Below are positions 77-62,250 of a stretch of DNA of 64,000 bases, in pieces (the first letter of the stretch is position 1; the number at the start of each line of letters is the position of its first letter). This DNA is from Prorocentrum cordatum (Eukaryota > Sar > Dinophyceae > Prorocentrales > Prorocentraceae): positions 115,497 to 179,496 of the forward strand of contig CAUYUJ010015759.1 in NCBI GenBank assembly GCA_963575745.1, read 5' to 3'. The position numbers and the translations under genes were made by a program. The notes beneath the pieces were generated by a model. The model saw nothing but the letters and a program-made list of their open reading frames with translations. It searched no databases and was not told the DNA's origin.

Positions 77-142
77 GCTCTGCACCATCATGTGGCGCAC
101 GCCCTCCTGGTGGACGACGCCAGCAAGGCCGAAGTCGGCTAT
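77..142 (-). CDS. Kinase exon: DFG motif and activation-segment start
   Basis: The exon begins at the ATA of Ile after a TGCCGCAG acceptor and encodes IADFGLAGVVHQEG and then VRHMMVQS. DFG carries the Mg-binding Asp; the rest is the start of the activation segment. The preceding exon ends AAG (Lys) in phase 0, giving the standard KIADFGLA. The 3' limit is uncertain: GC donors at about 76-81 or a GT donor at 85 are possible, after which the expected GTPGY segment is not present, so the remaining C-lobe exons must lie beyond base 1. Confidence 0.82.
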
Positions 143-1085
143 CTGCGGCAGGCGGCGCGACCGACTCCCCGGCGTAGGGGAAGAGAGGGAAGGGAGGAGG
201 GAGAAGGAGGACAGATCAGAGGGGCCTGAGAGGATCAGGGCAGGGCGAACAGGGGAAGTGGAGGGGGAGGCGTTTGAGGCGTGTTGAGTTGACTTGTCTC
301 CTTCTCTCTCTTTCTCTCCCTCTCTGCTCGCCCGCCCGGCATCCGAAATCGACATTGCCCCCAGGACGTCTGCACCGAAGGCGCGTGCAAGATAAAGCGC
401 TCAAATGGGACCAGAACGTGGACCCCGAAACGCTGTAGCCATGCTGGGGATGCCGTGCGACGACAGAAGCGGTTGCGTTCGGCACCCAGGGCCACGGGCA
501 GACGGAGATGGGGCCGAACGAGGGAGCCTGGCGACAGCGCACGCCAGCGCCGGCGCAAGAAGCGGCACAGGGGGCAACACCGCACGCCCCCCGGGCCGGC
601 GGAAGCTCGGCTCCCCGATGGTACTTGGACGGCAGGTCCGTGCGGTGACGACCCGGGCGCCGGTCTCTGACACCGAGTGGATCGTTGAACCTTAAACGAT
701 CGCGGCTGTCCAATAGCGCAAGATCGTCCGATGTCGGCCGATTCTGGGCCTCGGCGGCGTTCAACATTGAACGCCTGCGCCGGGGTCGCCGCTTCCTCCC
801 CCCTCCTCGTCCTGCTTCCTCATCCTTCCTCGCTCATTCTCCTTTCCCCACCCTCCTCGTCCACCCTCCCCCCCTCCGTCCTCCATCCTCGCTCCTCTCC
901 CCTCCTCGCTCATCCCTCCCTCCTCTTCCAGGAGAGCCCGCGCTGGAGCGGAGCGGCGCGCCGGCACGACACGACACCCGCAGTGCTCCCTCGCCCACGC
1001 CCACGATTGCGCCTCCAAGACCGTGCCAACGCCCGCGCATGGGCCTGCAGGCCCCGCACGCTCGGCCGCCTGCGCCTGAGTCTCC
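143..1085. other. Intron sequence, no recognisable feature
   Basis: Mostly GC-rich unique sequence in the intron downstream of the NILLD exon. I see no coding pattern, RNA gene or clear repeat, only CTCC-rich runs toward the right end. Confidence 0.4.
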
Positions 1086-1620
1086 GCCCTCCTCCTCCTC
1101 CTCCTCCTCCTCCTCCTCTTCCTCCTCCTCCTCCTCCTCCTCCTCCTCCGCCAGGAGGAGCATTGCGGAGGCGTCGGCGCAGGAATCCTCCTCTTCTCCC
1201 CCCATCGGCTCTCGATGGTCCATCTTCCTCCTGCTCCACCTCATCGATTATTGATCCTCCATCCTCATCCTCTCCCTTCTCCTCCTCCTCCTCCTCCTCC
1301 TTCTCCTCCTGCCCTTCCTCCACATATTTCACCTCCTCCCCCTTTTCCTCCTCTTCCTCCTCCTCCTCCTCCTCCTCCTCCTCCTCCTCCTCCTCCTCCT
1401 CCTCCTCTTGCTCTTTTTTTGCTCTCCTGCTCCTCCTGCTCCTGCCTGCTGCTCTGCTCTGCTCCTGTTCTGCTCTGCTCCTCTCCTCCTGCTCCTGCTC
1501 CTCCTCCTCCTCCTGCTCCTGCTCCTCTCCTCCTCCACCTCCTCCTCCTCCCTCCTCCTCCTCTTCCTCCTCCTCCTCCCCCTCCTCCTCCTCCTGCTCC
1601 TCCTCCCCCCCTCCTCCGTT
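1086..1620. repeat. (TCC)n-rich trinucleotide tracts
   Basis: Runs of TCC/CTC, some longer than 60 bases, with interspersed CTG-rich variants. Their frames give poly-Ser, poly-Pro and poly-Leu on one strand and poly-Glu, poly-Gly and poly-Arg on the other, so the long open frames here are repeat artefacts. Confidence 0.9.
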
Positions 1621-1637
1621 GCAGCTGTTGACTCAAA

Positions 1638-1765
1638 TCTTCAAATCCCACCAGCCCTCTGGGCGTAGGTGGTCTAGAGCAGATCCTCTTCCACCCCTCC
1701 CTCTTCCCCCTTGGGGAGGGGTTTACCCCTCCCCCTACCCCCTCCCCTGGACCTGGACGGGGGGG
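1638..1765 (+). repeat. Dispersed repeat, CCACCAGCCCT family, copy 1
   Basis: CCACCAGCCCTCTGGGCGTA followed by a GGTGGTCTAG segment, a CTTCCCC...GGGGAGGGG hairpin and TTTACC. Related copies are at 53104-53200 and 53727-53830. Confidence 0.6.
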
Positions 1766-1785
1766 GCCGCGGGTAGTTAGAGCGT

Positions 1786-59250: not shown

Positions 59251-59304
59251 GGGTTGGGCGGAAAGCCACTAGGATAATAAACAAATCTTGTGCGTGTAAC
59301 CAGA

Positions 59305-60060
59305 TCATCACCATCATCATCATCATCATCATCATCATCATCATCATCATCATCATCATCATCATCATCATCATCATCATCATCATCATCATCATCATCA
59401 TTCATCATCATCATCATCATCATCATCATCATCATCGTCATCATCATCATCATCATCATCATCATCATCATCATCCTCATCATCGTCATCATCATCATCA
59501 TCATCATCATCATCATCATCATCATCATCATCATCATCATCATCATCATCATCATCGTCATCGTCATCGTCATCATCATCATCATCATCATCATCATCAT
59601 CGTCATCATCGTCATCGTCATCGTCATCGTCATCATCATCGTCATCGTCGTCATCGTCATCATCATCATCATCATCATCGTCATCGTCATCGTCATCGTC
59701 ATCGTCATCAGCATCATCATTACCACCACCACCACCACCACCATCAGCATCAGCATCATCATCATCATCGTCATCGTCGTCATCGTCATCATCATCATCA
59801 TCATCGTCATCGTCATCGTCATCGTCATCGTCATCAGCATCATCATTACCACCACCACCACCACCATCAGCATCAGCATCAGCATCATCATCATCATCAT
59901 CATCATCATCGTCATCGTCGTCATCGTCATCATCATCATCATCATCGTCATCGTTATCGTCATCGTCATCGTCATCAGCATCATCATTACCACCACAATT
60001 ACCACCACCACCACCACCACCATCATCATCATCATCATTATCATCAACCTCATCATCCAA
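59305..60060. repeat. (CAT)n array with higher-order repeats
   Basis: A perfect CAT run opens the array. Later a block of CATCGT hexamers, CAGCATCATCATTACC and an ACC run recurs three times (ACC runs near 59722, 59848 and 60000), giving a higher-order period of about 130-150 bases. Confidence 0.95.
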
Positions 60061-61640
60061 ATCGCATCGGCAGCTCCCCCGGATCGGCGGCACTGGCCGG
60101 AGGCCACTACTATCATCCACGACGAGAAGCCTGTCAACAGGGTGGGGCCGGGAGCTCAGGGGATACCCTTTTCCGTCGGCGGTCAGGTGGGGCAATGCGC
60201 TCCAGCGTGGCAGCGATGTAGGGGCACTACAAAGCGAGTTTGCCGGCATGCAGGAGGAGGGAAGCTCAGGGGATACACGTCGTGAACACAAACAACGTGG
60301 GAGGTCTGTGAAGCGAGGGTGGCGGCCTTCGCACAGAGTGGGCGCCTGTGGCGGGGCGCAGGGAATCGTGAGGCTTGCTCTGAAGGCCGCCCCCTTCAGG
60401 CTGCTCCATGCTGTGCGTCGCGGGGGGGTACAGTGAGAGCCCATGCCAATATACACCCTGCTTGCCTCCAGGGTGCCCTGGGTTTGCCTGGGTTTCTATG
60501 GCTTTGCGATGGAAGGCGCGACGCTCCCACGCTCCCACACCAAGAATCAGTGGACGTCCTGGGGTCTGAGGGTTTGGCTTCTTGTGGAAGGTTTCTTGTG
60601 GTTGGGCCCCTACTGTAAGTAGGAGTGGGCCGTCCTCCCCGAGCGTGCGGTGGTCGGACCCCATGGGGGACGATCTCGGCACGCGTGCGGTGGGGGATGG
60701 CCGAATGATGCATTGGGCGGGGCGGCGTGGGGGAGACCGTATTCAACAAAGTGAAACATCCGTGCGAGTCGAGGTTTTCGAAGCAGATGAGGGGGGGGGC
60801 AGATCTTGAAGAACAAAATCCGTGGGGAAAGGGCACTTTCCAGTGGCACGACAACGGCTGGAACCGAAGACCCGCCGTGCGCGGCATCGACTGCGGCAAT
60901 GCGGAGCAACGCAGGCAAAGCGCAGCTAACAACATTGACACACAGAGCAATGTAAGAGAACGCCCAGCCATGGCGAGCGTTTCAAAGCTAAGTTAGAACG
61001 AGACACGGCCACCATGGACCATGCAAGGCACATCAGACCACCACAATCGAGCGCATCGCATGCCGATACAAATGACAGCCAGTGAAAACGCGCTGGTTAA
61101 AGTGAAGAGCACCAAAGCAACCACTAATGCAGGCATACCCGAGCCAATCAAGCACCGGCACGAAGGCGACGATACGCATTGGAAAGCTGGGCGTACGACG
61201 CCTGCGGGCGCAAGAAAAGACGACTCTAAGCGAAGAGCAACCTCAGATCGCAAAAAACGGTTAGCCATACATGCACAGAAGACCGGAAGCACCTTGCCCC
61301 AGAGGAAGGCTGAGAACGGCAGACACGCGCGAGCGAGCGAGCACTTGGTCCATTCTGGAGGCCGCCCAAATGGGGCCCGAGCAGATGGGGTCGGAGGACT
61401 GTGCTGCATCGCATCGGCGACGGCGAGACGGAGAAGGAGGAGCTCCAGATCGCGCCGCGTCGCCGATGCATCGGCGATGCGGCGCGATCCTGCGACCCTG
61501 TCTGCTCGAAGCCCCCTTGGGCGGCCTTGGCCTCCCCTTGCCTCTCGCTCCCCGGGCAGGAAGCAAACGGCCCCCGAGGGGAAGCGGGCTCTGGCCACGG
61601 GGCCCCTCCCCCCAAGGCCATATTCTCGTCCTTGGTCCCT
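60061..61640. other. Mixed sequence with a dispersed repeat; no gene
   Basis: Apart from 60428-60620 (plus-strand partner of 12478-12668) I see no feature. 61390-61500 and 58070-58135 share GATGCATCGGCG...GCGCGATCC-type segments. Confidence 0.4.
60428..60620 (+). repeat. Dispersed repeat, inverted partner of 12478-12668
   Basis: GTACAGTG, CCATGCCAATATACACCCTG, CTCCAGGGTGCCCTGGGTTT, CTTGTGGAAGGTTTCTTGTGG and CCCCTACTGTA in the same order as the minus strand of 12478-12668. Confidence 0.75.
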
Positions 61641-61850
61641 GGTGGACGAGGAGGGACGGGAGGAGGACGAGGAGGACGAGGAGGAGGAGGAGGAGAAGGA
61701 GGAAAGGAGGAGGAGGAGGAGGAGGAGGAGGAGGAGGAGGAGGAGGAGGAGGAGGAGGAGGAGGAGGAGGAGGAGGAGGAGGAGGAGGAGGAGGAGGAGG
61801 AGGAGGAGGAGGAGGAGGAGGAGGAGGAGGAGGAGGAGAAGGAGAAGAGA
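61641..61850. repeat. (GGA)n array
   Basis: GGA run of about 140 uninterrupted bases with GAC interruptions on the left. Confidence 0.97.
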
Positions 61851-62196
61851 GCCCCGGGGCTCGTGGGAAAGGCCCTGGGGAGCCCGAAAACGGCGGAAAA
61901 ACCGCAGGACCCGCTTCCCCCCCCATGGCGGCCTCCCCCTCTCTCTGCTCGCCCTGGGGCCCTCTCTTCCCCTCTCTCCACCTTCCCCCGCGGTCGGTGC
62001 CTCTCCCTGGTTGCCGCCACAGAGGGGCGTTCCTCCGCTCTCTCCTCCCCCTTGCTTCTCAACCTCTCGCCTCCATCCATATGCATCCTGGTGGCTGGTA
62101 CCTCGTCCTGGTTGCCTCCATGGGAGGGTCTCCCCTCCTCTCTTCGGTCCCCTCCGCCCCGCGGGGAGACGAGGGACGTCGGCCGGGCCGGCCCGC

Positions 62197-62250
62197 CTCG
62201 TCCTCGAAACCCTCGAGGCCGCCCATGTCATTCAGCACCTTCACTGCCAC
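62197..62250 (-). CDS. Kinase exon: beta-3 Lys and helix C (VAVK...GFEDE)
   Basis: This 54-nt, phase-0 exon encodes VAVKVLNDMGGLEGFEDE. VAVK carries the ATP-anchoring lysine of kinase subdomain II, and GFEDE is the helix-C region with the glutamate that pairs with it. The acceptor reads CAGAG|GTG and the donor GAG|GCGGGC, a GC donor as is common in dinoflagellates. In the next exon toward the C-terminus (51991-51941) the first complete codon is the His of HPNVV, entered in phase 2, so about 23 nt of coding sequence, normally a piece like VRVLxxxR, is missing between them. No glycine-rich-loop exon was found between here and the window end. Confidence 0.85.

Follow-up and report, generated by a model that had tools for sequence, protein, structure and literature searches.

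Very long introns and unconventional splice sites are known features of dinoflagellate genes. For Prorocentrum cordatum CCMP1329, gene models have been reported with GC and GA donors, AGG acceptors, a mean intron of 4,709 bp, a GC content near 59.7%, a mean gene length of 24.5 kb and a mean exon of 240 nt (PMC10666404). For Crypthecodinium cohnii a single long intron of 26,372 bp is mentioned (quoted in PMC11453091). The P. cordatum kinase gene analysed here resembles these systems in its donors and acceptors, its GC content and its introns of up to tens of kilobases. However, it extends over 133 kb, has 22 introns, the longest of 20,984 bp, with micro-exons among the exons they separate, and its internal coding exons have a median length of only 51 nt. 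At the protein level the closest described systems are the plant RLK/RLCK and animal IRAK kinases (BRI1, BAK1, PBL2, IRAK4), which the product resembles in the sequence of its kinase domain and which are its best profile matches among solved structures. It differs from them in lacking a hydrophobic membrane segment and, in the tree described below, in falling into a separate clade together with dinoflagellate and other myzozoan sequences.

Exon-intron structure

The window, i.e., the whole stretch of 64,000 nt that was analysed, is free of N and carries eight coding exons on its minus strand, with introns of 0.9 to 19.2 kb between them. Exon 9 of 23 (62197..62250, 54 nt, VAVKVLNDMGGLEGFEDE) encodes the catalytic Lys and the alpha-C Glu and starts with VAVK at 62250. 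It is followed by exon 10 (57357..57379, 23 nt, VRVLSRF plus 2 nt), exon 11 (51941..51991, 51 nt, RHPNVVTLLGWAQHESK, HPNVVTLLGW at 51990) and exon 12 (40364..40433, 70 nt, KYLVYELLPCGDLQGRLVKSREGK, YLVYELL at about 40430). Exons 11 and 12 are separated by an intron of 11,507 nt (40434..51940) that contains a LINE-like element. The next intron (21151..40363) comprises 19,213 nt, 27.5% of which are tandem repeats, and leads to exon 13 (21067..21150, 84 nt), which encodes helix E. The remaining exons are the micro-exon 14 (12715..12738, 24 nt, AFHRDIKP, with HRDIKP at 12732), exon 15 (11768..11803, 36 nt, ANILLDTDGSAK, NILLD at about 11800) and exon 16 (79..142, 64 nt, IADFGLAGVVHQEGVRHMMVQ plus 1 nt, DFG at about 136). 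All eight exons have AG acceptors, AG/A at exon 16 and AG/G at the others, and the donors are GC in 7/8 cases and GT in one (exon 11).

The order of the kinase motifs on one strand and the types of acceptors and donors are as given in the preliminary description of this DNA. Its estimate of about 385 nt of coding sequence had to be raised to 406 nt, and two exon edges were corrected: the HPNVV exon begins at 51991 and the DFG exon stops at 79. It had also reported fitting phases at five of six junctions. The one mismatch concealed a missing exon, the 23-nt micro-exon 10; with this exon all seven junctions are in phase. Exon 10 was predicted from relatives, then found, and confirmed in spliced alignments. 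A degenerate pattern derived from three relatives, combined with splice sites, matched once in the predicted interval and nowhere in the rest of the minus strand or on the plus strand; when the donor condition was dropped, one further minus-strand match appeared. Beginning the HPNVV exon at 52035 (CAG/CGC) would also be phase-compatible, but was ruled out because the relatives have VRVLSRF in that place. Likewise, exon 9 begins at 62250 and not at 62252, as became clear from the real preceding exon, which lies outside the window at contig positions 198,778-198,731.

A spliced alignment of a protein profile allowing long introns, the check that had been proposed for this locus, scored 339 on the minus strand versus 52 on the plus strand at an intron penalty of 18. 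Null scores at the same penalty reached no more than 72 with dinucleotide-shuffled sequence and 85 with column-permuted profiles (60 of each). Chance is thus excluded. The aligner used in the null tests extended exon 9 to 62307 and inserted one codon, and both are wrong. A shorter profile was run at intron penalties of 12, 18 and 24; with a 243-column profile at a penalty of 12, each strand gained strings of false micro-exons and the DFG exon was missed.

The joined exons could be compared with an uninterrupted protein from another source, P0026, which has 412 amino acids and is encoded on a 1,292-nt environmental contig. The eight window exons correspond to its residues 152-286, with 135/135 complete codons identical and no mismatch, and at the 3' edge of the window the split codon fits as well. 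For spliced alignment of P0026, intron penalties of 16, 24 and 30, then 20 and 28, were used, and its 5' part was aligned at 10, 14 and 18. On the contig of the window, 387/387 identical residues were recovered from Met26 to the C-terminus, encoded by 23 exons over 133,189 bp on the minus strand, from an ATG at 226,790 to a TAG stop codon at 93,602. Less than 1% of the gene (1,164 nt) is coding. The locus is therefore almost certainly a single P. cordatum protein-coding gene with 23 coding exons and a frame of 387 codons, as judged from its sequence. The initial view of one RLK/Pelle-like kinase gene with micro-exons, very long introns and GC donors holds, and its exons do lie across the whole window, but the window covers only the middle of a gene of about twice its length.

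The aligner also placed an N-terminal exon of P0026 at 63685-63453, but this is a chance match that required gaps and contained no exact stretch. P0026 residues 1-24, which represent the 5' untranslated part, were not found by spliced alignment in the contig between 226.8 and 239.5 kb. P0026 is the only one of 141 proteins that begins with LAQ, and this start is the reading of the spliced-leader end TTG GCT CAA G. We infer that the contig of P0026, which is known as protein sequence alone, represents RNA rather than DNA.

Micro-exons have been defined as having at most 51 nt (PMC4317164). Eleven of the 21 internal coding exons fall within this limit, five have at most 30 nt, and the smallest have 10 and 15 nt; with splicing deduced from P0026, they would qualify as micro-exons. 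Those of 10-30 nt are flanked by introns of 0.9 to 14.3 kb. Third-position GC is 0.879 in the whole frame and 0.876 in the window exons (in their first, 410-nt version), versus 0.595 overall. Two stretches of N (110,497-115,496 and 206,703-209,302) lie outside the window, both in introns, and the lengths of introns at these gaps are uncertain, because transcripts were used for part of the scaffolding in the published assembly.

Splice sites and intron contents

In the whole gene the 22 donors are GC (15), GT (4) and GA (3), and all 22 acceptors are AG, 20 of them AG/G. This combination is a mark of dinoflagellate spliceosomal genes, and it agrees with the figures published for P. cordatum, i.e., 51.4% GC, 23.8% GA and 24.7% GT donors and 79.7% AGG acceptors (PMC10666404). 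The seven window introns contain 1,602 AGG triplets. Introner-derived introns are marked by 8-20 nt inverted repeats close to their two ends. When the terminal 45 nt on either side of these seven introns were compared, the longest exact inverted matches, as raw lengths uncorrected for chance, were 10, 5, 5, 6, 3, 4 and 5 nt.

Of the 395 open reading frames kept, a minority was scanned against Pfam. The first ten from the window yielded an endonuclease, a reverse transcriptase and one match below the curated cut-off; ten more, and another six that included two longer versions of the first ten, gave no match. One intron contains the spliced-leader sequence, at the head of a retroelement.

The predicted kinase

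The protein matches the Pfam families PK_Tyr_Ser-Thr (3.1e-24) and Pkinase (5.6e-24), and the residues read from the exons include an intact catalytic Lys, Glu, HRDxxxxN and DFG. Ser/Thr kinase activity is therefore predicted. By the best 60 of 2,601 matches to solved sequences it is nearest to RLK/Pelle rather than to other kinase groups: 58 are plant RLK/RLCK or IRAK kinases, including some generically named entries that we take to belong there, and the other two are CTR1. In a tree of 37 plant, myzozoan, unlabelled and bacterial sequences, which contains neither Raf, MLK nor other outgroups and in which 12/34 inner branches are open, the window and P0026 join with a support of 100/95, within a clade of dinoflagellate, Perkinsus, Platyproteum and Cystoisospora sequences. 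The transmembrane segment of a receptor kinase is absent from P0026; its highest 19-residue hydropathy is 1.24 and lies inside the kinase domain. The product looks like a cytosolic RLK/Pelle kinase of the IRAK/RLCK-like type. RLCK and IRAK kinases pass on signals from a membrane receptor or adaptor, and by analogy this kinase would do the same.

Splicing and alternative explanations

We propose that the gene would be transcribed as one very long pre-mRNA, which would be trans-spliced to the dinoflagellate spliced leader. The spliceosome would remove 22 introns, accepting GC and GA donors, coping with introns as long as 21 kb and joining micro-exons of 10-30 nt. The exons might instead derive from several kinase genes whose pieces happen to be collinear on the same strand, in a genome where such genes are abundant (at least 131 matches listed, 129 of 2,135 candidates scored). 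But the 23 exons tile 387/387 residues of one protein without gap or overlap and with every phase fitting, which refutes this reading unless P0026 is itself a chimera, and we regard its probability as negligible.

There is a small chance that the locus is silent or decaying and that the P0026 mRNA stems from another, perhaps intronless, copy, as retrocopies are reported to be widespread in dinoflagellates (PMC12014239), the assembly is incomplete, and the paralogue C5714 contains residues 106-404 in a single open frame of 882 bp, for which 18 exons (6-23) are needed here. However, the frame of the locus is undisrupted, the splice sites of 22/22 introns are intact and the amino acid identity is complete, while the 100 genomic matches listed include no near-identical uninterrupted second copy. 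It is very improbable that exons of separate pre-mRNAs from the locus are trans-spliced, instead of one 133-kb transcript being spliced in cis. The length of the gene compared to the reported mean of 24.5 kb (PMC10666404), the reported frequency of leader trans-splicing in dinoflagellates (PMC2606063) and the leader sequence in one intron could speak for it, but that leader stands at the head of a retroelement, and GC/GT/GA-AG introns in a single order on a single strand need no further mechanism than the cis-splicing that we favour.

Long introns and GC or GA donors are already known in P. cordatum, and therefore the gene represents an extreme case of a known type. What deserves attention are the 10-30 nt micro-exons between introns of this size and the fact that the named public proteins of P. 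cordatum apparently do not include this gene's product. We are evenly divided on whether dinoflagellate spliceosomes routinely find such micro-exons between introns of about 1-14 kb with mostly GC donors in constitutive conserved domains, beyond ordinary exon-definition models, and whether such shattered genes make up a concealed fraction of large dinoflagellate genomes that is missing from current annotation. If this were true of many genes, gene counts and "dark" gene sets of these genomes would need revision. With every coding junction located and exons down to 10 nt, the gene is suited for testing gene finders, and for asking how the spliceosome selects its sites amid many candidates when GT, GC and GA are all accepted as donors. 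In a single-celled red-tide alga, it would show the reach of the splicing machinery and the ease with which such genes escape notice.

Relatives and annotation

It is plausible that standard annotation would miss the gene. The earlier statement that all of its exons would escape any ORF finder was too strong, since exon 13 lies in frame within a listed 340-aa open reading frame (20617-21639), but the ORF list still hides the gene. Among the listed protein matches, most of which are nameless, only two are named Prorocentrum, the paralogues P0072 (53% identity) and P0098 (61% over 79%). Outside the gene's own contig (C14910), the best identity among the matches listed in the genome is 63% (101 of 735 candidates scored). 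The paralogues C5714 and C20334 in the same genome belong to the same kinase family and are 50% identical; C20334 is present in two pieces, residues 80-329 and 332-402. Matches were also found at 22 loci of a viral contig collection (best segments 25-68% identity) and at two loci of a prokaryote contig collection (29-33%).

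The kinase gene in the window and on the whole contig

In accordance with the preliminary description, which had proposed one kinase gene spanning the window in tiny exons, the named kinase motifs were found on the minus strand in the stated order (six-frame motif scan; helix E read separately), and the exons in the window are flanked by GC or GT donors and AG acceptors. An initial set of seven exons, when joined, encodes a 142-residue kinase fragment that is recognised by Pfam and is similar to plant receptor-like cytoplasmic kinases and IRAK4. A first protein search with this fragment yielded 25 proteins, the best four with identities of 57-62%. 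In the alignment of three relatives, P0001, P0002 and P0004, the motif EVR.LS.FRHPN stands at the place of an odd insertion in the seven-exon fragment. Therefore, a 23-nt micro-exon with a phase-0 start and a phase-2 end was predicted in the interval from 62196 to 51990. A search of both window strands with a degenerate pattern that included the splice sites located it as GTGCGGGTGCTGAGCCGCTTCAG at 57379-57357 on the minus strand. This was the only match in the interval and the sole match on the minus strand, with none on the plus strand; removal of the donor condition added one minus-strand match, and the plus strand still had none.

The protein-to-genome spliced alignment that had been proposed as a check compares a profile with the DNA, allowing introns of the form G[TCA]...AG of any length in three phases. 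The profile of P0001, P0002 and P0004 placed all eight exons unaided, with a score at intron penalty 18 of 339.2 on the minus strand versus 51.8 on the plus strand. The scores of 60 dinucleotide shuffles (4-kb blocks) had a mean of 60.0 and a maximum of 72.2, those of 60 column-permuted profiles a mean of 65.9 and a maximum of 84.7. Third-position GC of the exons (410-nt version) is 0.876, compared to a window GC of 0.595, and none of the eight exons overlaps with tandem repeats or self-matches, though such repeats take up 40% of the window. Two details of the aligner output, an extension of exon 9 to 62307 and one inserted codon near the end of the alignment, were wrong.

The second protein search, now using the corrected sequence together with four relatives, retrieved P0026 (99% identity over 100%), a protein of 412 aa from a JGI environmental contig of 1,292 nt with four member sequences. 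The window exons contain 135 complete codons whose translation agrees at every position with residues 152-286 of P0026, and exon 16, ending at 79, gives Asn287, as in P0026. Proteins named as Prorocentrum cordatum were absent from the 25 of the first search and from the 120 of 862 listed in a later search, and were represented among the 120 listed in the second search by P0072 (53%) and P0098 (61% over 79%); most entries are nameless, and the searches covered limited length ranges, so that a gene model that is heavily broken up or fused could have been overlooked.

A search of the 4.13-Gb assembly (21,875 contigs) with P0026 revealed additional pieces on the same strand of C14910, the contig of the window, at 205,429-205,548 and 104,614-104,709. 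No second near-identical locus appeared among the 100 listed matches, for which 101 of 735 candidates had been scored, and the top identity among them outside C14910 was 63%. Alignment to the window plus eleven flanking pieces of the contig placed P0026 on 23 exons, with a score of 1621 at intron penalty 20 versus 205 on the opposite strand; the gene thus extends beyond the window. A base-by-base check verified a reading frame of 1,164 nt from the ATG at 226,790 to the TAG at 93,602; the 387 residues it encodes are identical throughout to residues 26-412 of P0026. Exactly 5,000 N (C14910:110497-115496) adjoin the window start and represent either a gap in the scaffold or withheld sequence.

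The introns, for which up to 19 kb had been claimed in the window, reach 20,984 nt; the shortest of the 22 introns has 599 nt, and their mean and median lengths are 6,001 and 4,447 nt. Their donors are GC (15), GT (4) and GA (3), all 22 acceptors are AG, followed by G in 20 cases, and phases 0/1/2 occur 13, 3 and 6 times. Median length is 51 nt for the 21 internal coding exons, and five of them do not exceed 30 nt (10, 15, 23, 24 and 30 nt); the introns that flank these five range from 911 to 14,287 nt. In a search restricted to the exact letters, the 10-nt and 15-nt exons with their splice sites are each unique in their own interval.

Protein class and inferred trans-splicing

P0026 has no membrane segment (peak 19-residue hydropathy 1.24). 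In a profile search of solved structures BRI1, BAK1, PBL2, SYMRK and FERONIA were near the top and IRAK4 lower; 58 of the best 60 structures listed are RLK/Pelle kinases, counting some with generic names that we assign to this class, and the last two are CTR1. In a 37-row tree that contains plant, myzozoan, bacterial and unlabelled rows but no other eukaryotic kinase groups, and that is flagged for long branches, the window gene and P0026 are paired (support 100/95) inside a 20-row clade (100/98) of dinoflagellate, Perkinsus, Platyproteum, Cystoisospora and unlabelled rows, which adjoins the plant receptor kinases. P0026 has CPTY at the position of the APE motif, and some relatives also contain an FHA domain (PF00498).

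The N-terminus of P0026 is LAQA, and it alone among 141 proteins compared starts with LAQ. The dinoflagellate spliced leader (PMC2606063) ends with TTG GCT CAA G, which translates to LAQ with one base left over for the following codon. Since the LAQ start reads as the end of the spliced leader, we infer from the sequence that the P0026 contig represents a trans-spliced mRNA. A search for residues 1-24 of P0026 in the 12.7 kb upstream of the gene gave no match, and the leader exon is therefore without a placement.

Comparison with other genes and genomes

For P. cordatum, AGG acceptors, donors of the GC and GA types and long introns have already been published, with means of 4,709 bp per intron, 24,462 bp per gene and 240 nt per exon, and for strain CCMP1329 an assembly of 4.15 Gb in 22,724 scaffolds with 59.7% GC (PMC10666404). 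An intron of 26,372 bp is on record for Crypthecodinium cohnii (quoted in PMC11453091). Among the papers listed in literature searches, no title or abstract opening dealt with dinoflagellate micro-exons. The proposed kinase gene is thus borne out, and its extent goes beyond what had been described. It is an extreme example of a known dinoflagellate gene type, and it poses a real question, namely how exons of 10-30 nt are recognised.

Residues 106-404 are spread over 18 exons in this gene. In contrast, a 50% identical relative in the same genome, on contig C5714, encodes these residues in a single open frame, and another, on C20334, encodes residues 80-402 in two pieces. Therefore, the shattering is a property of this gene and not of the kinase family. 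The difference may reflect intron gain in the gene on C14910, or intron loss via RNA copies in the relatives. Paralogous kinase loci lie at C5714:108313-108933 and C14513:289166-289807; the latter corresponds to the public P. cordatum protein P0072 at 100% over residues 1-214, and the former is 94% identical to P0072 (residues 27-233).

Elements within the introns

The intron between exons 11 and 12 contains a LINE-like element (42541-47365, minus strand) with endonuclease (PF03372) and reverse transcriptase (PF00078) domains split among several ORFs. At its head, spliced-leader sequence occurs twice in tandem, once as an exact 21-nt leader (47346-47326) and once as a 16-nt core with one mismatch (47361-47346). 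This arrangement suggests that the RNA of the element was trans-spliced and then copied back, twice. The 20,984-nt intron that separates exons 8 and 9 contains a match to U6 spliceosomal RNA (79.2 bits; 62551-62656, minus strand), which has the orientation of the kinase gene. Dispersed repeats of 73-80% identity lie near exons (52004-52178 and 629-798; 12476-12655 and 60428-60617), in one case ending 12 nt ahead of the start of exon 11. Large intronic tandem arrays are present at 30318-31910 and 17207-18542, where the repeat period is 79 and 160 bp, respectively, and tandem repeats account for 23.5% of the window.
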